From positions 2,356,001-2,420,000 of the forward strand of contig NZ_MASR01000001.1 of NCBI RefSeq assembly GCF_001758195.1: DNA of 64,000 nt, in the 5' to 3' direction. The first letter of the stretch is position 1, and the number at the start of each line of letters is the position of its first letter. Of this stretch, positions 1-16,372 are shown piece by piece. The notes beneath the pieces are model-generated. The model searched no databases. It had not been told where the DNA came from and worked only from the letters and a program-made list of their open reading frames with translations. The position numbers and the translations under genes were made by a program. This DNA is from Pseudohongiella acticola (GTDB lineage Bacteria > Pseudomonadota > Gammaproteobacteria > Pseudomonadales > Pseudohongiellaceae).

Positions 1-2
1 AC

Positions 3-638
3 GTTGTAAATGATGCTTTTAATCATTTTAAGACTATAGACGTTGTTGTGAATAACGCTGGGTATGGGCTGTTTGGTGCTGCTGAAGAGATCACTAATGA
101 TCAAATTGAACGAATAATAGATACGAATTTGATGGGTTCTATTCGAGTCATTCGAGCCTTCTTGACTCATTTCAGGAAACAGAACGGCGGAAGGATTTTG
201 CAAGTATCCTCTGAAGGTGGCCAAGTAGCTTACCCAAACTTTAGCGCTTACCATGCGAGCAAATGGGGTATCGAAGGTTTTGTAGAATCGACGGCGCAAG
301 AAGTCAGCTCATTTAACATAGAATTTACAATTGTTGAACCAGGTCCGACACGTACCAGTTTCGGCAAGAGCCTCGATACAGCAGAGCCTATTGAAGCATA
401 TAGAAATACGGTTTCTGGCAAAATGCGAGAGTCTTTTAGTAATGGCATTTTTACTCCTAAAGGAGATTTAGAAAAAATGGCAAATGCCATTGTAAATTCC
501 GTGGACGTCACGCCAGCTCCTTTTCGGTTAGCTTTGGGGGCAACTGCATTTGAGAATATCAATAACGCACTGAACGAAAGATTAGCTGTGCTCCATGCAA
601 TGAAATCCGTTACTTTGAATGTCGATGTAGACGCATAA
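3..638 (+). CDS. Short-chain dehydrogenase/reductase, 5' end outside window (cassette 1)
   Basis: The frame is open from the left edge, so the N-terminal NAD(P)-binding Rossmann part is missing from view. Visible SDR signatures are the NNAG motif near base 50 and the catalytic tyrosine and lysine in YHASK (about base 250), with the matching serine in QVSSEGG. The family catalyses NAD(P)-dependent oxidoreduction of small carbonyl or hydroxyl compounds; the substrate cannot be inferred. After the catalytic site the GPTRTSF stretch resembles classical SDRs of the C-alpha type. The stop codon lies inside the R'' box of the next attC, typical for cassette genes. Expression would normally come from an upstream integron promoter. 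Confidence 0.85.
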   Translation, partial: VVNDAFNHFKTIDVVVNNAGYGLFGAAEEITNDQIERIIDTNLMGSIRVIRAFLTHFRKQNGGRILQVSSEGGQVAYPNFSAYHASKWGIEGFVESTAQEVSSFNIEFTIVEPGPTRTSFGKSLDTAEPIEAYRNTVSGKMRESFSNGIFTPKGDLEKMANAIVNSVDVTPAPFRLALGATAFENINNALNERLAVLHAMKSVTLNVDVDA

Positions 639-698
639 CAATCAGTTCTATAAAGGACAAACTGCTACGCAGTTTGCCTATAAACAAGGGCGTTATGT
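633..698 (+). other. attC site closing cassette 1
   Basis: R'' GCATAAC at 633-639, R' GTTATGT at 692-698, with the arms GGACAAACTGC and GCAGTTTGCC forming the internal inverted repeat. Recombination would occur between G692 and T693. Confidence 0.9.
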
Positions 699-747
699 GT
701 ATACCAGATAGCTAAGCCAGTAAATTTAGTGGAGACCTAGATCGAAA

Positions 748-1173
748 ATGCCTTTGCCGCAGGAATACCAGAGAGCTTCTGACCAGTTTTATAGTTTCCT
801 AACAGAGCTTCGTGATTTATCCAATTTCGGAAGCTCCCATCAGACCTACACAATGGTTCAGGGAGTGTTTCAAGTTTTCCGAAAAAGACTACAGGTCAGA
901 GATGCCATCAAGTTTGCAGATGCTTTACCAGCCATATTACGCGCGATTTTTGTATCAGATTGGGACACAGAACAACCCATAGAACCATTCTGCGATCTCT
1001 TTGAGATGAATGCAGAGGTAAAACAACTGCGGGCAGAGCACAATTTCTCCACCGATACCGCAATTCAAGACGTTGGGAATGTTCTAAAAAAATACGTCGA
1101 TGAGGAAAAATTCACTTCTGTAGTACGTGATCTGCCAATAGAGGCGCAGCAATTCTGGCAATGGGATAAGTAG
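748..1173 (+). CDS. DUF2267-family protein (cassette 2)
   Basis: A 141-residue soluble protein. The central part, FRKRLQVRDAIKFADALP followed by LRAIFVSDWD, matches the pattern of DUF2267 proteins, small helical proteins of unknown function that are common in proteobacteria. No signal peptide or membrane segment is visible. The ATG is preceded by a GGAGA-like sequence about 14 bases upstream, which is long spacing, so initiation may be weak. The gene fills its cassette alone; its attC begins 10 bases past the stop. Function unknown; the family call rests on recall of the conserved RKRL and LP.LLR motifs. Confidence 0.75.
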   Translation: MPLPQEYQRASDQFYSFLTELRDLSNFGSSHQTYTMVQGVFQVFRKRLQVRDAIKFADALPAILRAIFVSDWDTEQPIEPFCDLFEMNAEVKQLRAEHNFSTDTAIQDVGNVLKKYVDEEKFTSVVRDLPIEAQQFWQWDK

Positions 1174-1182
1174 GTATCAAAC

Positions 1183-1263
1183 ACATAACAATCAGTTCAA
1201 TCGCCTCTGCGAGGCTATAGGACAAGTGGCGCTGCCACTTGCCTATTAACATGGGCGTTAGCA
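1183..1263 (+). other. attC site closing cassette 2
   Basis: R'' ACATAAC (1183-1189) is the exact reverse complement of the GTTATGT that opens the cassette at 692. R' is GTTAGCA (1257-1263). The arms contain GGACAAGTGGC and GCCACTTGCC. Confidence 0.95.
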
Positions 1264-1327
1264 AGCAGGTCGCACCACTAAAGTAATAACACCTAGTTTT
1301 AAGGGCGAAATCGTTAAGGAGCCCGAT

Positions 1328-1978
1328 GTGTTGGCAAGAGTTGCATTAGTAATTCAACTGTTATTTCAAGTATCTTGTGTTGGATCTTCAAGAGGTCAGG
1401 ATACACCCGAGTATTGGGCTGAAATTTTTAGACAATACCCGTCTGGAGAAGTACACCAGAAGCTAAATAATTTTCTTGGCGAAAAACCAATAGCTGAGCA
1501 GATGGAGTTCCGCGACAGAGTTACTGAGGCACGCTTGAGTACCATTAGAGCTTCATCGCTTGAGGAAGCTGGCTATCAGAGCTACGAAACGGCGTATTTA
1601 GATCTTATAGATGTCATAAATAGAGCGGAGGACGCAGGTGATCCAATTCATGGGTTGGAAAATTACTGGCGAGAGATGAAATTGATGCTTGATAGCCCGT
1701 TCCGATTTTATGGCGGCGAGGTTGTAAGCCTTATCCCCGTTAGCAGAATGACTGCGGAGCAGCAGAGACAGTTGGCATTGGTGACAGCTGCCATGAATTT
1801 TTCTTACGCGAAGAATCTAGCGGTTGAAGGCGTGCCTCTCAGACTAACTGAATCAACCGAAGAAATGGCTGTCTGGATAGGTGGGTTACCTATAATTGGG
1901 TACGGGAGCGTTCTATATAGCGCAAAGATTGAATTGGCCCTCCAGTCAGGGGAACCGATTCAGATAGTTCACCGATAG
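1328..1978 (+). CDS. Secreted protein of unknown function (cassette 3)
   Basis: A 216-residue protein starting with GTG at 1328, supported by an AAGGAG ribosome-binding site at 1316-1321. Residues 1-17 form a short hydrophobic signal sequence ending at a cysteine (residue 17, QVSC). The -3 position is not the usual leucine, so lipoprotein processing is possible but uncertain. The mature part is acidic and helical with no motif I recognise; a hydrophobic stretch near residues 180-192 may be structural. About 90 non-coding bases separate its stop from the attC. Family unknown. Confidence 0.7.
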   Translation: MLARVALVIQLLFQVSCVGSSRGQDTPEYWAEIFRQYPSGEVHQKLNNFLGEKPIAEQMEFRDRVTEARLSTIRASSLEEAGYQSYETAYLDLIDVINRAEDAGDPIHGLENYWREMKLMLDSPFRFYGGEVVSLIPVSRMTAEQQRQLALVTAAMNFSYAKNLAVEGVPLRLTESTEEMAVWIGGLPIIGYGSVLYSAKIELALQSGEPIQIVHR

Positions 1979-2068: not shown

Positions 2069-2183
2069 TGCTAACAATTTGTTATACCGGACCCAGCTAC
2101 GTTCCGCCAGCTTGTGGTTCGCTTCGCTCACTTTTACCACAAGCTGCCTCCACTACGCTGGGCCGGTAAGCAAGGCGTTACGT
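2069..2183 (+). other. attC site closing cassette 3
   Basis: R'' TGCTAAC (2069-2075) is the exact complement of the opening GTTAGCA at 1257. R' is GTTACGT (2177-2183). This is a long attC with a strong internal repeat (CCAGCTTGTGG, later CCACAAGCTG). Confidence 0.93.
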
Positions 2184-2240: not shown

Positions 2241-2465
2241 ATGGTTGTAGAGAAATTTAAGCCCGGGTGTCTTGAGCAAAATTACGCTAAATATAATGAG
2301 GGTGGCCGCTTGCTCCCTGAGGGTCTTTACTATTTAAACTCTTGGGTAAATCGCGACGACAACATTTGCTTCCAGCTAATGGAATCCAATAATCCTGAGC
2401 TATTTCAAGAGTGGTTCGCAAAATGGTCTGAGTTCGTGGACTTCGAGCTGTATCCGTTAGACTAA
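2241..2465 (+). CDS. Small soluble protein of unknown function (cassette 4)
   Basis: A 74-residue protein. The open frame reaches back into the attC, but the first ATG outside the recombination site is at 2241, preceded by GAAGAA, so I start there; a TTG at 2230 is an alternative. The sequence is rich in aromatic and acidic residues (for example CFQLMES, WFAKWSEFVDF), with no membrane segment. I do not recognise a family. It is the only gene in its cassette, between attC cores at 2177 and 2553. Confidence 0.6.
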   Translation: MVVEKFKPGCLEQNYAKYNEGGRLLPEGLYYLNSWVNRDDNICFQLMESNNPELFQEWFAKWSEFVDFELYPLD

Positions 2466-2475
2466 AAATGAAAAC

Positions 2476-2559
2476 ACGTAACAATCAGTTCAATCGCCCG
2501 CCAAGGCGGGCTTTAGGACAAGCGGCTACACCGCTTGCCTATTAACAAGGGCGTTAGGC
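2476..2559 (+). other. attC site closing cassette 4
   Basis: R'' ACGTAAC (2476-2482) exactly complements the opening GTTACGT at 2177. R' is GTTAGGC (2553-2559). It belongs to the same sequence family as the sites at 1183 and 10784. Confidence 0.95.
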
Positions 2560-2563: not shown

Positions 2564-3376
2564 ATGAGCTCAAATTCGTCGCAGTACTATAGCCAAGAAA
2601 GCTACAACGAGGCCCTGATGACTCTCCAAGGAGCCATCGTTGCGGTAATCTATGAGTTCGCTATGCGGCCATGCGATACGAAGCACCTGATCCTCAGAAA
2701 TACACTTTCCAGAAGCAGTATGAGTTTGAAAGCAATATTTGCACTTTGGGATATATCCGATTTTCAGGGCGGCTGGACCATACATAGAACCTTGCTTGAG
2801 CGCCTATTTCACATTATTGATTTGGATGCTAATGACTCGTACAAGGATTTCGAGGAATGGTCCTTTTATGAGCAATACAAGGCTCAGAATAGGGTAAAGA
2901 GTGATCCTAATTTTAAGCATGAGGCTACCGAACCTTTCTACAAACTGAGCCCAGAAAAGTCTGATCGTGCAAAAAAGCTATCCAAATCACCTCCAAAGTG
3001 GAGGCGAGCTAAGGCAGAAGATGTGGCGAAATCCGTAGAGCTAAGCTTTCTCTATAGATTTGGATATGACTTTGCATCTATGCATGTACATCCCATGGCT
3101 AACGATGGCGAGCAGGACTTCTTTACTGTGACGAGAATAGAGGCTCCGGCACTCTTCCCCGATCAAATGTCGCTACTTTCCAACACGCTTCTAGCAGCAA
3201 CTTTGATACTGCAGGAAGTTCTAAACCAAAGTGCCTATAAATGGCGTCGAATCTTGTGGGACTATATTGACGGTGTTCGCCATTTTCTTGGCACTGGAGA
3301 CGATTCATATAAGGACCTATTTACAAGGTTGCTTTTGGTGGGCAAGGATCAAGGTTTATGTGACTCGCCTGCCTAA
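2564..3376 (+). CDS. DUF5677-like protein (cassette 5)
   Basis: A 270-residue helical protein. Features resembling DUF5677, a family often seen in integron cassettes and accessory DNA, are the early RSSMSLKAIFALW segment, the RTLLERLFHI helix and the central YRFGYDFASMHVHP motif with paired histidines. No catalytic role is established for the family that I can cite. The ATG is 5 bases past the attC core and the AGG of GTTAGG may serve as a weak ribosome-binding site. The TAA stop lies inside the R'' box GCCTAAC, so gene and recombination site overlap. Family call moderate; function unknown. Confidence 0.7.
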   Translation: MSSNSSQYYSQESYNEALMTLQGAIVAVIYEFAMRPCDTKHLILRNTLSRSSMSLKAIFALWDISDFQGGWTIHRTLLERLFHIIDLDANDSYKDFEEWSFYEQYKAQNRVKSDPNFKHEATEPFYKLSPEKSDRAKKLSKSPPKWRRAKAEDVAKSVELSFLYRFGYDFASMHVHPMANDGEQDFFTVTRIEAPALFPDQMSLLSNTLLAATLILQEVLNQSAYKWRRILWDYIDGVRHFLGTGDDSYKDLFTRLLLVGKDQGLCDSPA

Positions 3377-3472
3377 CAATAACTTTCAGTAGGACAAAGT
3401 CTGGCTGGCAGGCCTTTCGCTTGCGCGAAAGCCCTGCCAGCCAGATTTCGCCGCTGAAGCAAGGCGTTATGA
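3371..3472 (+). other. attC site closing cassette 5
   Basis: R'' GCCTAAC (3371-3377) exactly complements GTTAGGC at 2553. R' is GTTATGA (3466-3472). The long arms include CTGGCTGGCAGG and CCTGCCAGCCAG. Confidence 0.95.
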
Positions 3473-3903
3473 ATCACCGAGACCATGGATTTATGACTGA
3501 ATTTAGCGGTTGTAAATTAGCCTTGATCCTTAACGGCAAATTGCTTGTCTATAAGCGGGATTTTAGTGACTCTATCCCGTTTTCAGGCATGTACGATTTG
3601 CCGGGTGGTGGCAGGGAAGGCGAAGAAAGCCCTGTCGAATGTGTGCTAAGAGAGCTTGAAGAGGAGTTTGGCCTACAAGTTTCAGAAGAGCGCCTCTCCT
3701 ATTGCGAAAAGTATGCTTTATCTTCGGGCAGTTATGGCTATTTCTATGCCGCTAAAATTTGTGAAGAGGAATTGAACATGATCTCGTTCGGTAATGAAGG
3801 AGTTTCTTGGCAAATGATGTCCATTCATGACTACTTGTCGAAAACAGACAGCATTCCTCATTTGAAAGAGCGTATTCATAAATATTTGGAGAGAGCGTTA
3901 TGA
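3469..3903 (+). CDS. Nudix hydrolase (cassette 6, first gene)
   Basis: A 144-residue protein starting at the ATG that overlaps the attC core (GTTATGA). An in-frame ATG at 3493 is an alternative start. Residues about 47-69 contain a complete Nudix box GX5EX7REXXEEXG (G47, E53, R61, E62, E65, E66, G68), so Mg2+-dependent hydrolysis of a nucleoside diphosphate linked to another group is expected. The substrate is not determinable; MutT-like sanitisation or an ADP-ribose-type substrate are both possible. The stop TGA lies in a second GTTATGA (3897-3903), and a membrane protein gene follows 12 bases later in the same cassette. Confidence 0.9.
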   Translation: MNHRDHGFMTEFSGCKLALILNGKLLVYKRDFSDSIPFSGMYDLPGGGREGEESPVECVLRELEEEFGLQVSEERLSYCEKYALSSGSYGYFYAAKICEEELNMISFGNEGVSWQMMSIHDYLSKTDSIPHLKERIHKYLERAL

Positions 3904-3915: not shown

Positions 3916-4305
3916 ATGAGTAATCGTCCAGAAATTCTATTCGTTTTCCCAGCAGTGTTTTTCATTGCTGGTATCTTCCTACCAGTCTATCTAATTGGGC
4001 TTAAAACTGACGAGATAGAGTGGGGGGAGCGGACAGCGATTGTAATGTATATCTCATTGCTCATTCTTATCGCATGGCCAATATCGAAATTCCAGAAAAG
4101 AAATGCAAGCTTCAAGTACTGGACCACCGATACTGTTTTAGGCGTCTCAGCTGTATCATTTGCTTATAGTTTCATAATTTCGCTCATAGTTTGCCTATAT
4201 CTTCTTTTACCCATATCAGGACTAATACTATTTGCGCTCTCTATTGGGTTTAGTTTTGGGGCATTTTTTGCTTTTATGGAAATGGGCAGAGTTAATGACT
4301 CATAA
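3916..4305 (+). CDS. Four-helix membrane protein of unknown function (cassette 6, second gene)
   Basis: A 129-residue protein with about four hydrophobic segments (residues 8-26, 38-56, 70-97 and 100-122) and short loops. I do not recognise a family. It follows the Nudix gene by 12 bases and both share one attC, whose R'' matches the core before the Nudix gene, so this is a two-gene cassette. The shared GTTATGA at the Nudix stop hints that two cassettes may have fused here with loss of the intervening attC. The stop TAA overlaps the R'' box TCATAAC. Confidence 0.7.
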   Translation: MSNRPEILFVFPAVFFIAGIFLPVYLIGLKTDEIEWGERTAIVMYISLLILIAWPISKFQKRNASFKYWTTDTVLGVSAVSFAYSFIISLIVCLYLLLPISGLILFALSIGFSFGAFFAFMEMGRVNDS

Positions 4306-4356
4306 CAATCAATTGCACACGACCAGCAAGCTGGCGCGTGAATACGGGCGTTATGC
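4300..4356 (+). other. attC site closing cassette 6
   Basis: R'' TCATAAC (4300-4306) exactly complements GTTATGA at 3466. R' is GTTATGC (4350-4356). At 57 bp it is one of the shortest sites here, with the arm CCAGCAAGCTGG. Confidence 0.9.
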
Positions 4357-4372: not shown

Positions 4373-4957
4373 GTGAATATTCTAGAGTGGTCGGCTAGCG
4401 TGATTGATTCTATTGTATGGCCATGCACGGTTCTCGTAGTTGTGTGGTGGCTACGTACACCTTTATCAAAGCTGCTACCCACTCTTAGTAGATTTAAATG
4501 GAGAGACCTAGAAATTGATCTCTCAAAAGAGATAGAGAAGATATCTGAAGAAACAAACGCGCTATCGACTGAAAAAGACAGCGTGCTATCGGATGATGAA
4601 GTGTCAGAGATTGAACAACTTCAGAGCGAAGTAGAGGAGGTCGCAAGGGTATCTCCCCCAGCAGCTATAACATTAGCTTGGACCGAACTTGAAAGAGAGA
4701 TTTTGACGACCGCCCATAGGCTTGGAATGCAATCAAAATCAAGAGCTTTTGTAACGTCACATAAGGCACTTAATACTTTAGTTGGTAGTGAAAAACTGAG
4801 CCGTGAGGAACTTAGATTATTGAAAAAGATGCAGATGCTAAGGAACCAGGCAGCCCATCACTCACGAGAGCTGCAGTATCTTACCCAAGATGATGCTGTT
4901 CAATATTTAGCTAATGTGTTACTCCTCATAAACAGGTTAAGAGCAATCGATGCATAA
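4373..4957 (+). CDS. Membrane-anchored coiled-coil protein with HEPN-like motif (cassette 7)
   Basis: A 194-residue protein beginning with GTG at 4373 after a GGAG ribosome-binding site. Residues about 9-28 form one membrane segment. An acidic coiled-coil region follows (about 48-90), then a helical domain ending in LRNQAAHHS (residues about 162-170). The R-N-x-x-x-H pattern with flanking helices resembles the catalytic RX4-6H motif of HEPN ribonucleases and also the C-terminus of DUF4145-like proteins. Membrane tethering plus a HEPN-like effector is a layout found in some antiphage proteins, but that role is inference. The stop TAA lies in the R'' box. Confidence 0.7.
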   Translation: MNILEWSASVIDSIVWPCTVLVVVWWLRTPLSKLLPTLSRFKWRDLEIDLSKEIEKISEETNALSTEKDSVLSDDEVSEIEQLQSEVEEVARVSPPAAITLAWTELEREILTTAHRLGMQSKSRAFVTSHKALNTLVGSEKLSREELRLLKKMQMLRNQAAHHSRELQYLTQDDAVQYLANVLLLINRLRAIDA

Positions 4958-5053
4958 CAAACCGATCCTGAGCGACCAAAGCGCGCCGTCATGCCTTTTG
5001 CTTGCGCAAAAGCCTCGCCAACACACTTTGGCGCCAGATCAGGGGCGTTAGGA
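4952..5053 (+). other. attC site closing cassette 7
   Basis: R'' GCATAAC (4952-4958) exactly complements GTTATGC at 4350. R' is GTTAGGA (5047-5053). The R' box runs into AGG to make the Shine-Dalgarno of the next gene. Confidence 0.95.
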
Positions 5054-5061: not shown

Positions 5062-5646
5062 TTGACCGATAGAATTTCGAAAATATCAGATTTCATGTTT
5101 CAACTAGATGCATTGAAATCTATTAATCGACGAACATACATCAATGGTGGGGAGAGGGTCGAAAACTCGGCTGAGCATTCTTGGCATCTAGCAATGGCAT
5201 GCTGGGCTTTCGCTGATATGCTAAACGACGATTACGATACACAAAAACTCCTTAAGCTTGCACTAATCCATGATCTTGGTGAAATTGGGGCTGGAGACAC
5301 ATATCTCTACAGTAGTAATAGAGGTAATGCCCACGTTAAAGAGCGTGAGTGCGTTAAACAAATTGCCTCGCACCCTGGCAATCCGATTAGCGATATTGTC
5401 GAGCTTTGGGAAGAGCAAGAAGCCGGTGATAGCAAAGAAGCAAAACTACTAAAGGTCATTGATCGCTTGTTGCCTTTCCTTCACAACATTACCAGCGAAG
5501 GTCGTGCATGGAAAGACAACGGTATACATAAAAACCAAGTGCTTAAAATGCACCGATTTATTGAAACTGAAAGTCCGGAGATACACAGCTGGTTTCTAGA
5601 AAAACTCGAATATGCGGTAGAGCGAGGTTGGCTGAATGACTCCTAA
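5062..5646 (+). CDS. HD-domain phosphohydrolase (cassette 8)
   Basis: A 194-residue protein. The best start is TTG at 5062, 6 bases after a perfect AGGAGG (5050-5055) formed jointly by the attC core GTTAGG and the following AGG; longer frames would begin inside the attC. The metal-binding HD motifs are visible as HSWHLA, then LIHDLGEIGAGD, and a later aspartate in VIDRLLP. This resembles YfbR/HDDC2-like 5'-nucleotidases that remove phosphate from deoxynucleoside monophosphates. Such enzymes can deplete nucleotides, and some HD proteins act in phage defence, but the cassette gives no direct evidence of that. The stop TAA is in the R'' box. Confidence 0.85.
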   Translation: MTDRISKISDFMFQLDALKSINRRTYINGGERVENSAEHSWHLAMACWAFADMLNDDYDTQKLLKLALIHDLGEIGAGDTYLYSSNRGNAHVKERECVKQIASHPGNPISDIVELWEEQEAGDSKEAKLLKVIDRLLPFLHNITSEGRAWKDNGIHKNQVLKMHRFIETESPEIHSWFLEKLEYAVERGWLNDS

Positions 5647-5759
5647 CAAAAAGCTGCACGCGGATATATATTGCTACACTCTTTTTGTGTATGTCGCAGT
5701 GCTCCATTCTTACACAAAAACGCTCTCCGCAATATCTACCGGTGAGCTTGGCGTTAGCC
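5641..5759 (+). other. attC site closing cassette 8
   Basis: R'' TCCTAAC (5641-5647) exactly complements GTTAGGA at 5047. R' is GTTAGCC (5753-5759). Long 119 bp site with the arms GCGGATATAT and ATATCTACCG. Confidence 0.93.
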
Positions 5760-5786: not shown

Positions 5787-6191
5787 ATGGTTGATCTGGT
5801 CACATCTGTCTCTCTTTGGGAACTAATCAAGCACGCTGGTAGCTGGGTTGTGAACCTTAAGCGAGCAAGCGCAGCGCGTAAGGAAGAATCAGTAAACGCA
5901 CTCCGCCAGGTTATTCTTGCTGCACAGAAGACGTCTGTATATATTCGTCAGATTAATGAGACCGGACTTAAGGATCATAATACAGAGGCTGAGTTGAGCA
6001 TTGCCTGGACAGAACTAAGTTTTAAGTTGGAGGATCTGGGCATAGACGCATTGGCTAAGCGTTGCAGGATGAAGGGAAAGCATTGGGCGAACCCTACCCA
6101 GTTTGCAATTGAGGAACTCGAAAAAGCAGATATAGGTCTTGAAAAAATGGAGTCGCTGGCAAATGAAATACTTTCTGAAGTTCGCAGCTAA
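5787..6191 (+). CDS. Helical protein of unknown function (cassette 9)
   Basis: A 134-residue protein. The frame is open from inside the attC, but the ATG at 5787 is the first start after the core and has a GGAGA sequence upstream, so I start there. The protein is charged and mostly helical, with no signal peptide; a weak amphipathic N-terminus contains SLWELIKHAGSWVV. No family recognised. The stop TAA overlaps the R'' box. Confidence 0.6.
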   Translation: MVDLVTSVSLWELIKHAGSWVVNLKRASAARKEESVNALRQVILAAQKTSVYIRQINETGLKDHNTEAELSIAWTELSFKLEDLGIDALAKRCRMKGKHWANPTQFAIEELEKADIGLEKMESLANEILSEVRS

Positions 6192-6263
6192 CCAAGTCAT
6201 CAACTTCGCGCCTACGGCGCCGGACGTCCACTGCGTGGACGCCGGTTATGAACGGCGTTAGGC
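6186..6263 (+). other. attC site closing cassette 9
   Basis: R'' AGCTAAC (6186-6192) differs at one base from the GGCTAAC expected from the opening GTTAGCC. R' is GTTAGGC (6257-6263). Nearly identical in layout to the site at 9292 (GTCATCAACT, GCGCCGGAC, CCGGTTATGAACG). Confidence 0.93.
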
Positions 6264-6281: not shown

Positions 6282-6791
6282 ATGTACCGTAGAGGATTTT
6301 TACTAGCATTGATGTTTGCTGTTGCTGGCTGTGGGACAACTCAGATGTCCGTCACTGGAACCGGCCCCGTCCAGACTGTATCTAGACTTGCTATAGCACC
6401 TGGCTCTGGTGTTTTCGGGGATGCCTTGGCAGTTGAATTATTTAACTCTGGACTTACCATCATCGATGCAAATCAGGCAACAACCCTTGTCGGGAGAGCT
6501 GGGCTGAGTGACTTCGAAATCACGAGTACTGCTGGGTACTCAGCACTTCAACAGAGCGGGATAGATGCCGTGCTAACAGTTCGCTCAGTTGATGCCGAGG
6601 ACGGCACCCCTGAAAGCGCGAGTATTCGGGTAAATTCGACCGCTGATGGCTCAGTGCTCGCTGGAGTAACCTGGCAAAATGGTTGGGGTGGGCAAAGAGG
6701 CTCGATTGCAGACAGAACCATGAGAAAGAACCTGTCTGACGCCACGAGGGATATTGCGGCGGAAATAATGACGCGAATTAAGGCCCCTTAA
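6282..6791 (+). CDS. Lipoprotein of unknown function (cassette 10, first gene)
   Basis: A 169-residue protein with a lipoprotein signal: basic MYRRG, hydrophobic LLALMFAV, then lipobox VAGC with Cys17 as the lipidation site. The mature region reads like a CsgG/DUF4136-type outer-membrane-associated fold (VSRLAIAPGSGVFGDALAVE and later IDAVLTVRS), but I cannot assign it firmly. Its neighbour in the same cassette ends in a membrane anchor, so the pair may act at the envelope. The downstream gene begins 12 bases after its stop, suggesting co-translation. Confidence 0.7.
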   Translation: MYRRGFLLALMFAVAGCGTTQMSVTGTGPVQTVSRLAIAPGSGVFGDALAVELFNSGLTIIDANQATTLVGRAGLSDFEITSTAGYSALQQSGIDAVLTVRSVDAEDGTPESASIRVNSTADGSVLAGVTWQNGWGGQRGSIADRTMRKNLSDATRDIAAEIMTRIKAP

Positions 6792-7392: not shown

Positions 7393-7498
7393 GCCTAACA
7401 AATTCTTACAGACGGACAAAATCATGCTGGCATGCCTTTTGCAATAAAACGCAAAAGTCACGCCGCCATGCTTTCGCCGCTGAAGAAAAGCGTTATGC
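7393..7498 (+). other. attC site closing cassette 10
   Basis: R'' GCCTAAC (7393-7399) exactly complements GTTAGGC at 6257, proving a two-gene cassette. R' is GTTATGC (7492-7498). Confidence 0.95.
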
Positions 7499-8464: not shown

Positions 8465-8543
8465 GCATAACAATCGGCTGCACAGCGACAATTTTTCCGC
8501 TGCGTTGCAGCTACAAATTTGCGCGTGAGCGCGGGCGTTAGGC
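8465..8543 (+). other. attC site closing cassette 11
   Basis: R'' GCATAAC (8465-8471) exactly complements GTTATGC at 7492. R' is GTTAGGC (8537-8543). The arms contain GCACAGCGACAA and TTGCAGCTAC. Confidence 0.93.
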
Positions 8544-9297: not shown

Positions 9298-9369
9298 CAA
9301 AGTCATCAACTGCGCGCCTTCAGCGCCGGACACGGCCTGCGGCCGCGCCGGTTATGAACGGCGTTAGCT
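9292..9369 (+). other. attC site closing cassette 12
   Basis: R'' GCCTAAC (9292-9298) exactly complements GTTAGGC at 8537. R' is GTTAGCT (9363-9369). Same attC family as the site at 6186. Confidence 0.95.
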
Positions 9370-9956: not shown

Positions 9957-10061
9957 AGCTAACAAAGTCCTCCAGCCGGACAAAACCATAGTGTCATGCC
10001 TTTTGCAAAATGCGCAAAAGGCACGCCACCATGATTTTGCCGCTGAGGAACGGCGTTAATG
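9957..10061 (+). other. attC site closing cassette 13
   Basis: R'' AGCTAAC (9957-9963) exactly complements GTTAGCT at 9363. R' is GTTAATG (10055-10061). Related to the sites at 7393 and 3371 (GGACAAAA, GCCTTTTGC, GCCGCTGA). Confidence 0.95.
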
Positions 10062-10127: not shown

Positions 10128-10766
10128 GTGCGAGAGTTTGTAGTAACTACTTATGACTGGGTTCCCGAAGTACCACGCGGCTACGTAAGGGATTTACGCA
10201 TACGTTGGGCCTTGGAAGAGGCCGAACTGCCTTATCGGGTAGAAGCGACATCGTTTCGTGACCGCGGCGCCGAGCACTTCTTGCACCAACCTTTTGGGCA
10301 GGCTCCCTGGCTTACCCACGGTGAAATTTCCATTTCCGAAAGTGGAGCAATATTGCTCTATATAGGTGAATTCAGCCAGCATTTGATGCCCACTACCCCA
10401 AAAGAACGCGCGAAAGTAATCGAATGGGTTTTCGCGGCATTAAATTCTGTAGAAATGGCAAGCTTGCCTTGGTCGCTATTCAAATTTACAAACGATGAAG
10501 AGATGACCGCAGGTCGAAACCTTATAGAAGGATTTCTGAGCACTAGACTAAAACATATGGAGCAGGTCTTCGAAGATCGTGAATGGCTCACAGAGGCATT
10601 CTCAATTGCAGACATACTGATGTCAGATGTGCTCCGACTTGTTGATCGCTTTGATGGACTAGCTGAATACCCTTTATGCCACTCCTTTGTTGAAAGAGCC
10701 ACTGCTCGACCCGCGTTTGCAAAAGCTCTTGAAGATCAGTTAGCACATTTTGCTGCTTCAGATTAA
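10128..10766 (+). CDS. Glutathione S-transferase family protein (cassette 14)
   Basis: A 212-residue protein starting with GTG after a strong AAGGGGGG ribosome-binding site at 10115-10122. The thioredoxin-like N-domain ends with the glutathione-contacting motif SESGAILLYI (residues about 67-76) and a proline-bearing GQAPWL segment before it. The helical C-domain carries the typical late FSIADILMSDVLR capping motif. It may conjugate or reduce electrophiles; no substrate can be named. The leader of about 65 bases is longer than in most cassettes here. Confidence 0.85.
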   Translation: MREFVVTTYDWVPEVPRGYVRDLRIRWALEEAELPYRVEATSFRDRGAEHFLHQPFGQAPWLTHGEISISESGAILLYIGEFSQHLMPTTPKERAKVIEWVFAALNSVEMASLPWSLFKFTNDEEMTAGRNLIEGFLSTRLKHMEQVFEDREWLTEAFSIADILMSDVLRLVDRFDGLAEYPLCHSFVERATARPAFAKALEDQLAHFAASD

Positions 10767-10783: not shown

Positions 10784-10867
10784 CATTAACTAACAGTTCA
10801 ATCGCCTGCTAAAGCGGACTTCAGGACAAGCGGCTGCGCCGCTTGCCTATTAACCAGGGCGTTATAT
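10784..10867 (+). other. attC site closing cassette 14
   Basis: R'' CATTAAC (10784-10790) exactly complements the unusual GTTAATG at 10055. R' is GTTATAT (10861-10867). Same family as the sites at 1183 and 2476. Confidence 0.95.
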
Positions 10868-11179
10868 GCCAGAGAGCACGAAATCGACAGCAGCGATAAT
10901 TTCAGATCGGTAATGAGTAAGATCGCAAAATTCACGGCCAAGCTGGTTACGATCTATACCAGCCATATCTTGCACCATTGCTGTATAGCGGTTGCCACTT
11001 ATATCTAGCACAGGATTCAGCTTTGAAATGGTGATATTAGCGACTGACTCCGAAGGACTTAGTGGCACCACAATGGTAGTACGCAGATCGTCAAGCAGGT
11101 TGCTTTGGATATCCAACAAGTAAGGGAACTGCTTGCGGCTAGTGGGATTCGGGTTCTGATAGGCAACGAATTGAGCCAT
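10862..11179 (-). CDS. ccdB: CcdB-type gyrase toxin (cassette 15, reverse orientation)
   Basis: A 105-residue protein matching CcdB over its full length: N-terminal QFVAYQNPN, then FPYLLDIQSNLLDDLRTTIVVPL, and C-terminal EIIAAVDFVLSGI. CcdB poisons DNA gyrase unless bound by CcdA. The C-terminus lacks the tryptophan that is critical in F-plasmid CcdB; as I recall, the Vibrio-type CcdB also lacks it and is still toxic, so activity remains plausible. The gene starts at the last base of ccdA's stop region (coupled translation). Its TAA stop is read from the attC core TTATAT on the opposite strand, so gene end and recombination point coincide. Confidence 0.9.
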   Translation of the reverse strand: MAQFVAYQNPNPTSRKQFPYLLDIQSNLLDDLRTTIVVPLSPSESVANITISKLNPVLDISGNRYTAMVQDMAGIDRNQLGREFCDLTHYRSEIIAAVDFVLSGI

Positions 11180-11424
11180 CAGAACTTCCTTACAGAGTCG
11201 CTAAATGTGCCATGCTTTTCGACATGGTCGTTATAGGCCTGGATGGCCGACGCGTTTTCCTGGCGCCATTGAGCCCGCCGCTGTGCACGCAATTGCTCGG
11301 TAAGTGCTCGTTCAAGTGTCGCTGACAAATTGATTTTCAGGCTTCTTGCTTGGCTAAGTAAATCGCTGTTTATGCTGACATTAGTCGGTTTTTTCGGTGC
11401 TTCAACATTGTAGAAATCTGTCAT
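11179..11424 (-). CDS. ccdA: CcdA-type antitoxin (cassette 15, reverse orientation)
   Basis: An 81-residue protein. The start at 11424 is chosen because GGAGG lies 8 bases upstream on the minus strand; the longer open frame lacks such a site. The N-terminal PKKPTNVSINSDLLSQAR segment is the ribbon-helix-helix DNA-binding part. The C-terminal region, with WRQENASAIQAYNDHVEKHG, is the disordered CcdB-binding tail typical of CcdA. It neutralises CcdB and represses the operon. Its stop overlaps the ccdB start. Toxin-antitoxin cassettes are known to be placed with their own promoter in integrons, where they stabilise arrays; this one points against the other genes. Confidence 0.9.
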   Translation of the reverse strand: MTDFYNVEAPKKPTNVSINSDLLSQARSLKINLSATLERALTEQLRAQRRAQWRQENASAIQAYNDHVEKHGTFSDSVRKF

Positions 11425-11454
11425 AGTACGAGCCTCCGCATACCACATGCACAT

Positions 11455-11486: not shown

Positions 11487-11528
11487 ATATAGCAATTCGA
11501 TTAACTACGCGCCCTTCGGGCGTTATGT
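11487..11528 (+). other. Short, damaged attC closing cassette 15
   Basis: R'' ATATAGC (11487-11493) is one base from the ATATAAC expected from GTTATAT at 10861. R' is GTTATGT (11522-11528). Only 42 bp, with the arm CGCGCCCTTCGGGCG. The changed AAC triplet may impair recombination. Confidence 0.7.
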
Positions 11529-11552
11529 GTTCATGCGTGACTGGAGGGACCA

Positions 11553-11600
11553 ATGAATACTATTTTCCCACAGCTGATCGTTATTGGCGCTAAGGATTAA
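11553..11600 (+). pseudogene. Fifteen-codon stub resembling the start of a VOC/PhnB-like gene (cassette 16)
   Basis: ATG at 11553 with a GGAGGG ribosome-binding site 8 bases upstream opens a reading frame of 15 codons ending TAA. The peptide MNTIFPQLIVIGAKD resembles the first strand of PhnB-like VOC (glyoxalase-fold) proteins, which begin in this style. The rest of the gene is absent; about 25 bases later a degenerate attC begins. I read this as the remnant of a deleted cassette gene, though a short translated leader cannot be excluded. Confidence 0.45.
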
Positions 11601-11625
11601 AGGCAGTGACAATTTTTAAGGCCAC

Positions 11626-11703
11626 ACATATTCAAGCCATTAAGTTTGCGCACTTTGTGTGCCGGACCTCGTTTCACTCGGCCACTTATGGCGGGCGTTG
11701 GGC
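11626..11703 (+). other. attC site closing cassette 16
   Basis: R'' ACATATT (11626-11632) has two changes from the expected ACATAAC. R' is GTTGGGC (11697-11703). The body (AAGCCATTAAGTTTGCGC, TCACTCGGCC, TATGGCGGGCG) is almost the same as the site at 16295, which confirms identity. Confidence 0.85.
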
Positions 11704-11754
11704 GGCAAGGCCGCGATCGCTCTACTTGTCTAGGAATCTTGGGAGAGAACCGGG

Positions 11755-12398: not shown

Positions 12399-12426
12399 CT
12401 AAAAGTTCGTAGTGCCTGGCAATAAT

Positions 12427-12585
12427 ATGTTAAGAGGCTATGACTCCGTTTACAAAATTAAACTTCGCTCTGCTGGTTACCGGTTAGCCTATGAGGTTGT
12501 TGACGATGAGTTGTTTGTATATGTAATTTCCGTAGGTAAACAGGAAAAGGGCAAGGCCTACTCATCTCTTAAAAAGCGAACGTGA
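12427..12585 (+). pseudogene. Truncated RelE-family toxin (cassette 18)
   Basis: A 52-residue frame, LRGYDSVYKIKLRSAGYRL followed by AYEVVDDELFVYVISVG and a basic KKRT end, reads exactly like the C-terminal half of RelE/ParE-superfamily mRNA interferases. Full-length RelE is about 85-95 residues; the first helices are gone and no antitoxin gene is adjacent. ATG at 12427 has no good ribosome-binding site. Since the catalytic C-terminal residues may remain but the core helices do not, I call it a non-functional remnant. It lies in a cassette bounded by cores at 12392 and 12713. Confidence 0.75.
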
Positions 12586-12600: not shown

Positions 12601-12719
12601 GCATAACAATCAGTTCCAGACCGACAGCGTGCATTGCGAACATTTGTGTCGCTCGCTGTTGCCCATACAACCACACAGACGCCGCTCGGTGCTAGCAGCA
12701 GCTGAACTGGGCGTTAGAT
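12601..12719 (+). other. attC site closing cassette 18
   Basis: R'' GCATAAC (12601-12607) exactly complements GTTATGC at 12392. R' is GTTAGAT (12713-12719). The arms contain GACAGCGTGC and GCTGAACTGG. Confidence 0.9.
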
Positions 12720-13225: not shown

Positions 13226-13300
13226 ATTTAACAAGCCAAGTCAGCGGGAATTTGACTCGCTGAAAAACACTTATAAAATCCCCTGCTTGGGGCGTTAGAT
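13226..13300 (+). other. attC site closing cassette 20
   Basis: R'' ATTTAAC (13226-13232), two changes from the expected ACCTAAC. R' is GTTAGAT (13294-13300). The arms GCCAAG and CTTGGGGC, and CAGCGGG/GACTCGCTG, form the body. Confidence 0.8.
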
Positions 13301-13308: not shown

Positions 13309-13905
13309 ATGGATTCGATTTCAGCTGCACAATGTAATATGCGTGAAGCCTACTACGGTGGAGCCCCCGGCATTGTCTCCTCTGGAAGTGCGTGGCTGTT
13401 AGCTGCGATAGTTGCAGCCTTGGTATCGGAGCGGGCAGGTGTTATTGCGCTAGTAATGGCGGGGATGCTTATTTTCCCTGTGTCGGTTGTATTTTGTCGA
13501 CTGCTTGGGTGCACCGGAAAGCACAACAGGGGCAACCCTCTCGCTCCGCATGCCATGGAGGGAACGATCTGGATGCTTCTCTCTATTCCCATAGCAATAG
13601 CTGCTGCTATGTATAGGATCGAGTGGTTTTTCCCGGCAATGCTTTTAGTAATTGCCGGCCGTTATCTCACTTTTTCCACTTTGTACGGGATGCGCATTTT
13701 CTGGGTATTCGGAGCAACATTGGTGACCTCTGCGCTGGGTCTGATTTATTTGCAAGCCTCTGTGTTTCTAGGTGCATTGACAGGCGCATTAGTTGAGTAC
13801 ATATTCGGCGCAGTAATTTTCGTGACTTTCCAGACATCGCAACCTAACCAGGCGCTCAACTCGCAGGCTGCGCCTGCTGGGACGCCGCGAGATGACGCCC
13901 GTTAG
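13309..13905 (+). CDS. DUF7010-like membrane protein (cassette 21)
   Basis: A 198-residue protein with about five to six hydrophobic segments (about 22-42, 45-65, 85-102, 106-122, 126-145 and 148-166). The N-terminal MREAYYGGAPGIVSSGSAWL matches the start pattern of DUF7010, small multi-pass proteins of unknown function. The last roughly 21 residues are encoded by the attC site itself (13842 onward), so recombination here would change the C-terminus. The ATG lies 9 bases past the attC core. Start and frame are clear; function is unknown. Confidence 0.75.
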   Translation: MDSISAAQCNMREAYYGGAPGIVSSGSAWLLAAIVAALVSERAGVIALVMAGMLIFPVSVVFCRLLGCTGKHNRGNPLAPHAMEGTIWMLLSIPIAIAAAMYRIEWFFPAMLLVIAGRYLTFSTLYGMRIFWVFGATLVTSALGLIYLQASVFLGALTGALVEYIFGAVIFVTFQTSQPNQALNSQAAPAGTPRDDAR

Positions 13906-13918
13906 CGCGGCGTTATGA
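13842..13918 (+). other. attC site closing cassette 21, overlapping its gene
   Basis: R'' ACCTAAC (13842-13848), one change from the expected ATCTAAC. R' is GTTATGA (13912-13918). The arms CAGGCGCTCAACTCGC and GACGCCCGTTAGCGC are read as protein in the upstream gene. Confidence 0.85.
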
Positions 13919-13927: not shown

Positions 13928-14479
13928 ATGAGCATTACTTTCCGACCTCTTACGAAACATGATGCGAACTATTGTAAGGCTATTGATCTCTATATGAGAG
14001 CGTTTCCTGGAGCTCAGCGTATACCAGCATGGATGCTGCGGTATAAGCTTAGAAACGGAAAGGCAGGCTTCAATGTAGTTTACTGGTGTGATAATTGGAT
14101 CGGCCTTATCTATATCACTGAGTATCAAGACATTGCGTTCATGCACTTTCTGGCCATTTCGGAATCCTGCCGCTCTGTCGGTTATGGCATCAAGGTAATG
14201 AATGCAATTAAGGACACTCATGCCGGAAAAAGGATCGTAGCGAATATTGAGAAACCAGATGAGCAGGCAAAAAATTACCAGCAGAGAATTAAACGTAAAT
14301 CGTTCTATGAAAGGTGCGGCTTCAGTTCCTCGGGGTACTTGGTGAAAGAGCCCGGAGAGCAACTTGAGATGATGATATTTGGCGGACTTATCAGTAAAGA
14401 GGATATAGAAGAATTTTACGACAACCTCTTTGGCGGAGTCCTTGGTTTTTTTGTCAAACCTAAAGTCACAAGAATATGA
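13928..14479 (+). CDS. GNAT-family N-acetyltransferase (cassette 22)
   Basis: A 183-residue protein. The start is taken at ATG 13928 (SITFRPLTKHD follows); an in-frame GTG at 13919 is possible. The acetyl-CoA-binding region is visible as MHFLAISESCRSVGYGIKV, where the loop RSVGYG corresponds to the Q/RxxGxG/A motif A, and the later FYERCGF is the usual motif B segment. The acceptor is unknown. One of four GNAT genes in the window; GNATs are frequent integron cargo. Confidence 0.85.
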   Translation: MSITFRPLTKHDANYCKAIDLYMRAFPGAQRIPAWMLRYKLRNGKAGFNVVYWCDNWIGLIYITEYQDIAFMHFLAISESCRSVGYGIKVMNAIKDTHAGKRIVANIEKPDEQAKNYQQRIKRKSFYERCGFSSSGYLVKEPGEQLEMMIFGGLISKEDIEEFYDNLFGGVLGFFVKPKVTRI

Positions 14480-14501: not shown

Positions 14502-14581
14502 TCGTAACAAATCGCTGGAGCGGGACGTTTCTTCCGCTACGCGCTTCGCTCCATGAACGCCCCTCGGCTCAGGCGTTATGA
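14502..14581 (+). other. attC site closing cassette 22
   Basis: R'' TCGTAAC (14502-14508), one change from the expected TCATAAC. R' is GTTATGA (14575-14581). The arms CGCTGGAGCGGGAC and CGCTCCATGAACG. Confidence 0.87.
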
Positions 14582-14596
14582 ATACAGGGCAAGATC

Positions 14597-15031
14597 GTGC
14601 CACTAAGCATAGAAAAAGCGAGAGAAGAAGATGAGGCATGGCTGTTCGAGCTTTATCGCACAACCATGAAGGAGTACGTGGAAAAAACATGGGGTTGGGA
14701 TGAAGCGGTACAGCATGATGGGTTTACTAACCATCTCGGCGTAGCCAACTTTGTCATATGCTTGCATGATAATGATACGGCTGGCTGCTTCTGCCTTAAA
14801 GACGAAGGCGACCATCTTTGGCTGTATCTGGTCCTCATTGACCCTCAGCTGCAAAATCGCGGTATTGGTCGTGCCATAATGGAGCATATCGAATCTATCT
14901 CAAGTGCCGCAGATAAGCCTATGCGGCTTTGCACTATGAAGGTGAGCCCAGCAACAGAGTTTTACCGTCATCTTGGCTACATACAGTACAAAGAAGACGA
15001 GGCGTGTGTTTATTTCAGCAAAAACCCATAA
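14597..15031 (+). CDS. GNAT-family N-acetyltransferase (cassette 23, first gene)
   Basis: A 144-residue protein starting with GTG at 14597. Motif A is clear: LVLIDPQLQNRGIGRAIM (residues about 78-94) containing the pyrophosphate-binding QNRGIGRA loop. The C-terminal FYRHLGY is motif B. The N-terminal MKEYVEKTWGWDE resembles the subgroup with an EYxxxTWGWDE motif. The acceptor is unknown. The stop TAA falls inside a truncated attC, and an SDR gene follows 26 bases later without an intact recombination site between them. Confidence 0.85.
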   Translation: MPLSIEKAREEDEAWLFELYRTTMKEYVEKTWGWDEAVQHDGFTNHLGVANFVICLHDNDTAGCFCLKDEGDHLWLYLVLIDPQLQNRGIGRAIMEHIESISSAADKPMRLCTMKVSPATEFYRHLGYIQYKEDEACVYFSKNP

Positions 15032-15045: not shown

Positions 15046-15057
15046 AAGGAGAGTTCA

Positions 15058-15810
15058 GTGTCTACTGATAAAGTTGTCATAATCACCGGTGGCGGCAGAG
15101 GGATAGGCGCGGCTACGGCAGAATTGTTTGCCATGAAAGGGTTTGCAGTTTGCATTAACTACAAATCAAATTCAGATGCGGCCACTGAAGTAGTAAGGTC
15201 TATCACTAATAAGGGTGGGCTGTGCGTTCCGATTCAAGCAGATTGTTCTGTCGAAGAAGATGTGGTGCGGTTATTCACCACAGTTGACCGTGAGCTAGGC
15301 GCGTTATCTGTGCTCGTGAATAATGCTGGAATTATAAGACCTCAGTGTCGACTGGAAGACATGGACGCTGATCGCATAAATTCGCTTCTGATAAATAATG
15401 TGACCAGTTATTTCTTATGCTCACGCGAAGCGGTGAAGCGAATGTCTATTAGACGCGGTGGACAAGGTGGAACTATTGTAAATGTTTCTTCTGGGGCGTC
15501 CAAAAGTGGTTCACCCAATGAATATATTGATTACGCATCCTCTAAAGGAGCGATAGATACTCTAACGAAAGGCCTTTCTATTGAAGTCGCTGATGAGGGT
15601 ATTCGTGTAAATTGCGTTCGACCAGGGCTTATCTACACCGGGATGCACGCCGATGGAGGTGAGCCTGACAGGGTAAATCGGCTTAAAGATGTGATACCGA
15701 TGAAAAGAGGCGGTGCTCCCAAAGAGGTTGCTGAGGCGATTTATTGGCTGGCCTCAGAAAAGTCATCTTTTGCTACCGGAAGTTTTATCGATCTAACGGG
15801 AGGGCTATAA
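15058..15810 (+). CDS. Short-chain dehydrogenase/reductase (cassette 23, fused second gene)
   Basis: A 250-residue protein starting with GTG at 15058 after AAGGAG (15046-15051). Classical SDR signatures are complete: TGGGRGIG cofactor loop (residues about 11-18), NNAG, catalytic serine in VSSGAS, tyrosine and lysine in YASSKGA, and a C-terminal TGSFIDLTGG. It resembles NADPH-dependent 3-oxoacyl-ACP reductases and sugar dehydrogenases; substrate unknown. The next attC has R'' GCATAAC, which does not match the core opening this block (GTTATGA), so the SDR came from another cassette. Confidence 0.88.
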   Translation: MSTDKVVIITGGGRGIGAATAELFAMKGFAVCINYKSNSDAATEVVRSITNKGGLCVPIQADCSVEEDVVRLFTTVDRELGALSVLVNNAGIIRPQCRLEDMDADRINSLLINNVTSYFLCSREAVKRMSIRRGGQGGTIVNVSSGASKSGSPNEYIDYASSKGAIDTLTKGLSIEVADEGIRVNCVRPGLIYTGMHADGGEPDRVNRLKDVIPMKRGGAPKEVAEAIYWLASEKSSFATGSFIDLTGGL

Positions 15811-15812
15811 GT

Positions 15813-15857
15813 GCATAACAATGCCAAACACAGGGACGTTGAACTTCGGCGTTACGT
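15813..15857 (+). other. Short attC after the fused SDR gene
   Basis: R'' GCATAAC (15813-15819) and R' GTTACGT (15851-15857) with only 45 bp in total. Inner arms are weak (TGCC, then CGGC). Confidence 0.65.
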
Positions 15858-15877
15858 GTATTGGAATAGGAGATTAT

Positions 15878-16282
15878 GTGGAGCCTGAAATACAAGAAAA
15901 ATTGGCGACATATCCCACTGAAGCGCAAAGGCTGCTTAAAGCTGTACGTCGGCTCATTATATCTGTTGCGGAAGAAAACAATTTAGGTGCAGTTGAAGAA
16001 ACACTCAAGTGGGGTGAGCCCAGTTACCTTGTAAAAGGTGGCACTACGATCCGGATGGACTGGAAGCCAAAAGATCCAGAATCCATAAAGGTATATTTCC
16101 ATTGTCGAACCAGACTGATCGAAACCTTCAGGGAAATATATCGCGACGAGTTCGAATATGAAGGAAAAAGAGCGATTGTTGTCCCCTTGGGCGCTGATAT
16201 CAAAGAGGGGCCACTAGGTCATTGTCTTCAAATGGCACTGACCTACCATAGCTTGAAACACCGCCCATTACTTGGAGCGTAA
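15878..16282 (+). CDS. DUF1801-family protein (cassette 24)
   Basis: A 134-residue protein with the start at GTG 15878, supported by AGGAGA about 5 bases upstream; the longer frame begins inside the attC. The pattern of ETLKWGEPSYLVKGGTTIRM, followed by VYFHCRTRLI and a conserved glycine-rich end, is that of DUF1801 (YdhG-like) proteins, small alpha-beta proteins of unknown function, some with an iron-chaperone-like fold. No signal peptide. Alone in its cassette. Confidence 0.82.
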   Translation: MEPEIQEKLATYPTEAQRLLKAVRRLIISVAEENNLGAVEETLKWGEPSYLVKGGTTIRMDWKPKDPESIKVYFHCRTRLIETFREIYRDEFEYEGKRAIVVPLGADIKEGPLGHCLQMALTYHSLKHRPLLGA

Positions 16283-16294
16283 AGTGATAAACAC

Positions 16295-16372
16295 ATGTAA
16301 CAAAGCCATTAAATTCGCTTCCTTCGGTCGCCGGACTTCATTTCACTCGGCCGTTTATGGCGGGCGTTAGTA
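16295..16372 (+). other. attC site closing cassette 24; last site of the array
   Basis: R'' ATGTAAC (16295-16301), one change from the expected ACGTAAC. R' is GTTAGTA (16366-16372). Body nearly identical to the site at 11626. No attC follows the next gene. Confidence 0.9.

Follow-up and report, generated by a model that had tools for sequence, protein, structure and literature searches.

Integrons are major bacterial gene-capture platforms, and little is known of what brings them to a halt. A 64,000-bp stretch of Pseudohongiella acticola DNA (here called the window; C1:2356001-2420000 in a 3.61-Mb genome of 8 contigs, labelled G000) opens inside a long array of gene cassettes and their attC sites, and the question that it raises is whether such an array belongs to a working integron or to one that has stopped. 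We found that the array most probably belongs to a decaying sedentary chromosomal integron, with a truncated integrase gene (intI), an attI site split by a guide-matched IS1111-type insertion sequence (IS), and about 22 kb of cassettes; we give this reading a probability of about 0.8.

By eye, the left part of the window shows plus-strand open reading frames (ORFs) interspersed with attC-like stretches. A plain string search for the R''/R' arms proved too strict and then too loose, and covariance models were used instead. Model R1 was built from 17 in-register attC sites of the G000 array, and model R2 only from 26 attC sites of another species (G014), which were themselves chosen with R1 at E<=0.05. 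In the window together with the 18 kb directly to its left (L001, whose coordinates become window coordinates when 18000 is subtracted), R1 found 22 distinct attC sites at E<0.01, 15 of them inside the window, and R2 found 27, with 18 inside. Together the two models give 28 sites, of which 19 fall inside the window (633-16372) and 9 lie left of it, and every match at this level lies on the plus strand, which gives the tandem attC sites in one orientation that characterize a sedentary chromosomal integron. When six half, short or degenerate sites (11499-11528, 11634-11696, 12226-12398, ~13035, ~15029 and 15813-15857) are added, the window holds about 25, in agreement with the preliminary description of the window, which had counted about 24 sites of consistent orientation and correctly placed the right end of the array at 16372.

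The array extends beyond the window on the left side only. From 16373 to 64000, R1 gave no match at E<=10, and the single isolated R2 match at E<=5 (20669-20767, E 0.017) lies outside the array and is probably due to chance. On the left, the array starts about 5.4 kb before the window (L001 12602), behind a divergent intI, and is therefore a chromosomal integron array some 22 kb long (~21.8 kb, to window position 16372), of which the window contains the right three quarters. The preliminary description had left the array open at the window start and its size unknown; the leftward continuation was confirmed, and the size can now be given.

The attC sites of this array are mostly normal in structure. 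The 17 in-register sites share a common 7-bp L''/L' helix with one extrahelical base, and the two arms covary with a score of 0.427, against 0.05-0.08 when slid and with 0 of 500 shuffles as high; this score is optimistic because the 17 sites were picked for register fit. Most sites have an exact inner TAAC/GTTA core. Full 7-bp R''/R' pairing, including G-T pairs, was found in 3 of the 31 sites printed with their cores (a few of which are out of register), and the strict search returned one array site exact over 7 bp, left of the window (-806 to -750), so that the exact R''/R' pairing earlier claimed for 14 sites was not reproduced. Rfam gave no gathering-level match in the window. A whole-genome scan with R1 gave 16 matches at E<=1 among the best 150 of 1270 candidates; 15 are in the array, and the remaining one is a lone attC-like site remote from it (C1:1986502; L023 8503-8574, 30.6 bits). 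When plasmids were searched in near mode, the window part of the array was unmatched and the left part had one attC-sized match; in distant mode, only attC-sized or partial gene matches were among the matches listed.

The integrase gene is a remnant. It lies about 7 kb left of the window on the same replicon, divergent from the array and next to attI (L001 10638-11156, minus strand), and matches TIGR02249 (E 5.6e-41) over positions 1-138 of a profile of 315. It has an in-frame stop; read on past the stop, it can be aligned as far as about position 175 of 320, beyond which it diverges. The later columns of conserved H, R, H and Y (positions 268-303, as aligned in four full-length relatives) are therefore missing. 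At E<=1e-15 the G000 genome contains no IntI besides this remnant; the phage-integrase family is matched five times across the genome. A sedentary chromosomal integron has a functional integrase, and in G000 the stop and the missing C-terminal catalytic part take its place; the broken integrase therefore makes the G000 integron a decayed member of that class. A cluster of attC sites lacking an integrase (CALIN) has no intI nearby, and here the remnant is present. The preliminary description had advised extending leftward for intI and attI and applying attC covariance models: both sites were found, intI broken and attI split, and both models gave matches, so neither of the two absences that it had named as fatal to an integron, of an integrase on the same replicon and of attC model matches, was seen.

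We then surveyed the genus. Of 15 genomes, 10 have a match to intI and 14 have attC sites at E<=0.1. Four of the intI genes are seemingly full length (G014, G010, G004 and G006, with one flagged TAA in the G006 match) and six are broken. Arrays outlive integrases in this genus, in line with earlier reports. In G014, G007, G002 and G011 C57, the left-flank DNA is close to intI or attC, and in others it is far from intI. Among the best 80 loci listed, the nearest named integrases are gammaproteobacterial, the best being Shewanella mangrovi at 62%. Passages of PMC2426708 put nearly one third of intI genes down as pseudogenes, and passages of PMC12444791 describe intI activity as seemingly lost in most Xanthomonas strains.

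The attI site of G000 is split at its crossover by a 1,334-bp IS1111-type element of the RNA-guided IS110 family (L001 11268-12601, plus strand). The left half of attI and its leader (L001 11157-11267) precede the element, and the order across the junctions is CACGATACAAAT, the IS (AATGATATGGACGCCCC ... GGGGCGTCCATAGAT), and then GTTACATG. In nine genomes aligned between intI and the array, G000 included, the attI core ACAAAT/GTTA or a near variant is conserved; attI is intact in G014, G011 C33, G010 C9, G005 and G008, and G004 and G006, which have a different intI, align poorly there. The element encodes an IS110-type DEDD transposase (L001 11338-12354; PF01548, PF02371; NF033542 E 7.6e-109), with a 245-nt non-coding region downstream (L001 12355-12601) and 12-bp subterminal inverted repeats, TATGGACGCCCC at both ends. 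A downstream non-coding region and subterminal inverted repeats are given as IS1111 features in the cited part of PMC11187229. The G000 genome has one copy of the element; Rfam gave no match in it at E<=0.1, and its seekRNA region had no plasmid match at E<=0.001.

With the integrase gone and attI split, G000 would be unable to capture cassettes or to excise them by itself, and the array would persist as a frozen, slowly eroding stock. The live, mobile accessory store of the preliminary description is accordingly unsupported for G000, given the truncated intI, the lack of a second IntI at the threshold above and the split attI.

The non-coding region of the element suggests how it may have come to attI. 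In IS1111 seekRNAs, as set out in part of PMC11187229, the match to the top strand lies 5' of the match to the bottom strand. The G000 non-coding region contains CCTAACAT, the reverse complement of AT-GTTAGG, and after 18 nt it contains CAAATG, the left attI side, an order that agrees with the published one. We propose that the IS was guided to attI by its seekRNA (bridge RNA), one guide of which would pair with AT-GTTAGG (the attI core and the usual cassette start) and the other with the opposite strand of CAAAT-G (the left attI half); the element would have reached attI because the guide RNA fits both of its sides. The predicted fold has one internal loop around a hairpin, with a guide in each side of the loop. 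Four pairs of this fold are changed on both sides among four sequences, and the G001 RNA folds slightly more stably than its shuffles (z -1.32).

Related elements were found at the same site in other genomes. Among 137 genomes of the family, 10 contain 12 related copies at E<=1e-60, and the four closest (G000, G009, G010 and G001; 63-100% identical) occupy the identical attI position. An intI remnant adjoins three of these four, and the G010 copy is without intI in its 4-kb locus. An RNA model (R3) matched 18 of 390 genomes of the order at E<=0.01, 16 of them new; 14 of these, giving 20 stretches, were taken further, and the two weak ones (G261 and G310) were left out. In 13 of the 20 stretches attC lies to the right of the IS or guide-RNA region, and in none does it lie to the left at E<=0.05. 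An intI gene beside the element was found in three of the new set, full length in G210a and G162 and truncated in G450.

Guide and target were then scored in the copies with both ends fitting a fixed pattern, which are 12 attI copies and one control. G216 (ends set by eye), G487 (contig ends), the second copy of the guide RNA within the G450bc stretch and the regions with no transposase at E<=1e-20 (G450a, G450d, G328a, G200a, G200b, G484, G258a, G258b, G303 and G174) were left out. All 12 copies occupy sites that resemble attI (AAAT or AACT before GTTA), with intI or a fragment of it adjoining six, and none is inserted into attC as members of the IS1111-attC group are. Guide and target agree over 12-14 nt, a score reached by 2-46 of 4000 random genomic 40-mers, and in all 12 copies the matches fall at corresponding places of the RNA and are equally spaced (17-18 nt). 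The left guide co-varies with the left attI half: CAAATG occurs with ATACAAAT, TAAAAATG with TATAAAAAT, TTAAAATG with GATTAAAAT, and ATAAACTG with AATAAACT, and TAAAATG or AAAATG are further versions among the 12. Outside the scored set, the left target of G216, TATACAAAT, fits its guide. The control (G089, 55% identical and at a non-integron site) has guides that fit its own site over 17 nt (0 of 4000 random sites) and score 0 on all but one of the 12 attI targets; the attI non-coding regions score 0-10 on the G089 target.

A transposase tree was made from 18 of 20 proteins with a midpoint root; G155 and G487 had no usable open frame with the motif used, G210b, G328b, L118, L123 and L124 were also left out, and the outside rows L120, L121 and L122 are long-branched. 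The attI-targeting transposases form one group (support 95/97, 96% of bootstraps, 10 of 18 rows). Since the G001 transposase groups with copies from other families, apart from its own genus (100/98), the element has probably passed from host to host without losing its programming for attI. At E<=1e-8, the flanks of the best 80 named IntI loci, all of other genera, contain no transposase related to this IS110-type protein, and attI-targeting copies are therefore evidenced within this order only. The IS would then be one member of a clade that is programmed for attI and spread over several families of the order. Its insertion precisely at the crossover would shut out new cassettes and leave the stored array intact. 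Because G210 and G162 keep an intact-looking integrase, the outcome may be a reversible, RNA-programmed lock, if excision is precise. We consider the chances even that there is such a clade of RNA-guided IS1111-type elements, specialized on the attI of chromosomal integrons and closing their gate, possibly as a reversible lock.

Two side observations concern these stretches. Ten of the 20 (L148, L150, L153 and L158-L164) contain a guide-RNA region without a transposase match at E<=1e-20, and six of these ten have attC to the right; they may be eroded copies or cases in which the RNA was kept without the enzyme. In L149 (G450), a second guide-RNA region and an IS right end lie left of the intI fragment, followed by another full IS, as if the head of the integron had been duplicated.

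The order of events is indicated by a draft contig of a relative (G011 C33), which carries the same 3'-truncated intI (97.6% identical; 96.8% over the 1751 bp around it) beside an empty attI. Its array differs from that of G000, with one whole cassette (8533-9365, 94.8%) and one remnant in common. Because C33 shares the 3' junction of intI and has an empty attI, truncation of intI probably came first and insertion of the IS later, with the array content changing afterwards. This order is tentative because C33 may be chimeric. Loss of intI through the IS was considered and rejected as the default reading, as the same remnant stands beside an empty attI in C33, and intact-looking intI genes stand beside an occupied attI in G210 and G162. 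Two further observations touch on C33. In its first 8100 bp (L012 1-8100), a G000-like integron head is joined to a right flank that resembles a different chromosomal place, which may reflect relocation, transfer or an assembly chimera. In G004 C5, the DNA beside attC matches is also matched by the right part of C33.

Several points weigh against the proposed course of events and against the guides. The first bases of C33 look adapter-like by eye, the left flank recurs at 83% identity on a second G011 contig, and C33 may be chimeric or contaminating; precise excision of the IS in the G011 lineage would reverse the inferred order, and an integrase supplied in trans from outside could still move cassettes. 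The guide RNA is predicted here from sequence, through the guides and a partial covariation. The G000 fold by itself is no more stable than shuffles (z 0.65), and the count of changed pairs rests on four sequences with a structure borrowed from one, G001. By themselves the G000 guides match weakly (12 nt, equalled by 45 of 4000 random sites). Only 4 of the 12 non-coding regions score best or tied on their own target, and 8 score higher on another copy's attI, because the first-cassette start in the target varies and GTTAGG fits best. Copies that share the left target TATTAAAAT carry two guide versions, the changed right guide of G329 matches only 4 nt (TAAC), and on the G329 target the G089 control reaches a score of 11. 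Model R3 contains the guides, so that finding the same guides with it is partly built in.

The cassette genes were analyzed with Pfam in 37 ORFs of the array region, fragments included; the same scans also covered the transposase, intI and one further ORF beyond the right end of the array. The families found include DUF1493, ABM, short-chain dehydrogenase (2), DUF2267, DUF3303, DUF5677, NUDIX, HD_3, DUF2971 (2), methyltransferase, glutathione S-transferase, CcdA and CcdB (reverse strand), DUF7010, GNAT (2) and DUF1801. In agreement with the many unrecognised genes of the preliminary description, many of the genes are of unknown function.

Within the window the array occupies 1..16372, and all features below lie on the plus strand unless stated, with attC sites matched by both R1 and R2 where no E value is given. 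The site at 633..698 (R1 E 2e-7) is followed by a DUF2267 ORF (748..1173, Pfam E 4.5e-21), the site at 1183..1263 (R1 E 2e-6) by an ORF of no family (1328..1978), and the site at 2069..2183 (R2 E 0.0047; 82% identical to Aliarcobacter plasmid DNA) by a DUF3303 ORF (2241..2465). Behind the site at 2476..2559 (R1 E 3e-7) lies a DUF5677 ORF (2564..3376), and the site at 3371..3472 precedes a cassette with a NUDIX ORF (3469..3903) and a second ORF of no family (3916..4305). The next sites are at 4300..4356, before an ORF with no family above the cut-off (4373..4957); at 4952..5053, before an HD_3 ORF (5062..5646); at 5641..5759 (R2 E 7.4e-5), before an ORF of no family (5787..6191); and at 6186..6263, before a cassette with two ORFs of no family (6282..6791 and 6804..7388). 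A DUF2971 ORF (7568..8419) follows the site at 7393..7498, and the methyltransferase ORF (8551..9297), in the cassette shared with C33, follows that at 8465..8543. Two more sites, at 9292..9369 and 9957..10061, precede an ORF without a Pfam family (9425..9955; one weak NCBIfam match, E 0.0095) and the glutathione S-transferase ORF (10128..10766), respectively, and the site at 10784..10867 (R1 E 0.0046, R2 E 0.012) precedes a reversed ccdB-ccdA toxin-antitoxin pair (10862..11454, minus strand; CcdB E 1.1e-31, CcdA E 3.5e-30), a possible stabilizer of a frozen array.

Further right, an attC-cupin-attC remnant (11499..11705; R2 E 0.11 at 11634-11696) and a ParE-type toxin fragment (12412..12585, Pfam E 2.5e-4, under the cut-off) are followed by attC sites at 12601..12719 (R2 E 3.2e-7) and 13226..13300 (R2 E 3.9e-5; R1 only E 0.26). 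A DUF7010 ORF (13309..13905), the site at 13842..13918, a GNAT ORF (13928..14479), the site at 14502..14581, a second GNAT ORF (14597..15031) and a short-chain dehydrogenase ORF (15058..15810) come next. A very short attC-like site (15813..15857; R1 E 0.18, R2 E 0.73), a DUF1801 ORF (15821..16282) and the last attC (16295..16372) complete the array. Erosion is apparent in the deleted cupin cassette, the half attC sites and the ParE fragment; the cupin cassette has lost its middle, with two ends 92-93% identical to those in C33 (11518-11699 against 5305-5738). When 35 array proteins were compared with 18 stretches from relatives and G000 itself at E<=1e-6, five were matched: the methyltransferase (C33, 94%), DUF2267 (G014, 83%), HD_3 (G007, 75%; part in G002), DUF2971 (G007, 38%) and part of CcdB (G005, 57%).

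Two proteins of no family were inspected by eye. The 4373-4957 protein has a membrane segment and an R-x4-H motif that may resemble that of HEPN proteins, and the L001 14467-15117 protein has a D...ExK pattern that may resemble that of PD-(D/E)XK nucleases.

The preliminary description noted that chromosomal integrons are reported to store anti-phage systems, and saw in the array the best place to look for new ones. Three of the 37 ORFs match PADLOC candidate families at E<=0.01, namely the two DUF2971 ORFs (PDC-S31; E 8e-6 in the window and 1.9e-29 left of it) and the NUDIX ORF (PDC-S07, E 2.7e-9), and defence cassettes have been reported in other integrons (Darracq 2025, Getz 2025 and Kieffer 2025, as cited in a part of PMC12444791). 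These matches hint at some anti-phage content. However, none of these is a known system, and at this threshold the 37 ORFs contain no described anti-phage system apart from weak matches of the methyltransferase to mad2 (E 0.0015) and BrxF (E 0.005), which look like a generic methyltransferase or chance. Many ORFs are ordinary enzymes (glutathione S-transferase, short-chain dehydrogenase, GNAT, HD and methyltransferase), and we consider it unlikely that the array is mainly an anti-phage library.

Alternatively, the copies in attI may all descend from one ancient insertion, so that the guide match would reflect shared ancestry and no repeated targeting. The identical position of the four genus copies would fit, as would the divergence of both IS and intI: G001 and G000 are 63% identical in the IS and 58% in intI (amino acids), and G009 and G000 are 83% identical in the IS and 63% in the adjoining intI fragment. 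However, the G001 element groups with other families, apart from its congeners; of the two attI sites in G010, one is occupied and the other empty; in C33 a nearly identical intI remnant stands next to an attI without insertion; and in G329 an altered target is matched by an altered left guide. Descent from a single insertion is improbable on this evidence.

We give an equally poor chance to the integron still working through an integrase in trans, with the array as a live store. The strong difference between the G000 and C33 arrays, despite the same intI remnant, speaks for it, but the C33 contig may be chimeric and G000 has a single IntI match at E<=1e-15. It is very improbable that the insertions mark a hotspot set by the transposase or by DNA structure, with coincidental guide-like matches, for although single-copy matches are short (about 1% of random sites equal them in G000 and G329) and most non-coding regions (8 of 12) score higher on another copy's attI, all 12 copies match at corresponding RNA places with one spacing, the left guide changes along with the left target, the G089 relative has guides for an unrelated site, and seekRNA targeting has been shown experimentally for the IS1111 family (PMC11187229, in part).

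The decaying integron of G000 illustrates that a long array is no proof of a working integron. If a guide RNA is indeed aimed at attI, a second, independent recombination system would parasitize and disarm the platform itself, beyond single cassettes. The idea is directly testable because guide and target vary in nature.

The G000 locus resembles several known systems. Like the chromosomal integrons with dead integrases, for example those of Xanthomonas, it has intI, attI and an array, with frequent intI pseudogenes. According to part of PMC12444791, arrays are usually identical among Xanthomonas strains that share an intI deletion, whereas G000 and C33 share a remnant and differ in their arrays, with the reservation that C33 may be chimeric. 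The first attC of the array (L001 12936-13052, 5.1 to 4.9 kb left of the window) matches, at 90.6% identity across 117 bp, the attC of the qacK cassette in class 1 integrons on plasmids NZ_CP028567.2 and NZ_CP143525.1 (Aeromonas hydrophila and Pseudomonas putida), but the preceding gene differs, being DUF1493 in G000; the likeness hints at a shared cassette pool. The seekRNA or bridge RNA elements ISEc11, ISPa11 and IS621 have the same IS1111 guide order, an RNA expected from the downstream non-coding end, and guides in two sides of one internal loop (predicted here). They differ in having another target.

The closest likeness is to the attC-targeting IS1111 elements, reportedly described by Tetu and Holmes in 2008 and by Post and Hall. 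In a literature search whose coverage leaves most subscription papers outside, no attI-targeting IS1111 or bridge-RNA element was among the matches listed; the word attI is absent from PMC11187229, and the cited part of a Shewanella survey (PMC9229058) has five IS110-type elements in integron variable regions, none interrupting attC and none named at attI. IS1111 elements known to target attC (ISKpn4, ISPst6, ISPa25 and ISPa21), as characterized in parts of PMC11187229 and PMC11616780, also have a DEDD transposase, a downstream region with two guides and an integron site. By their descriptions they differ from the G000 element in inserting at attC; the G000 element has split attI at its crossover, where it stands between the first cassette and the platform, and attI is also what its guides spell out. 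With attC-targeting IS1111 already known, the apparent targeting of attI is what would be new in the G000 element.

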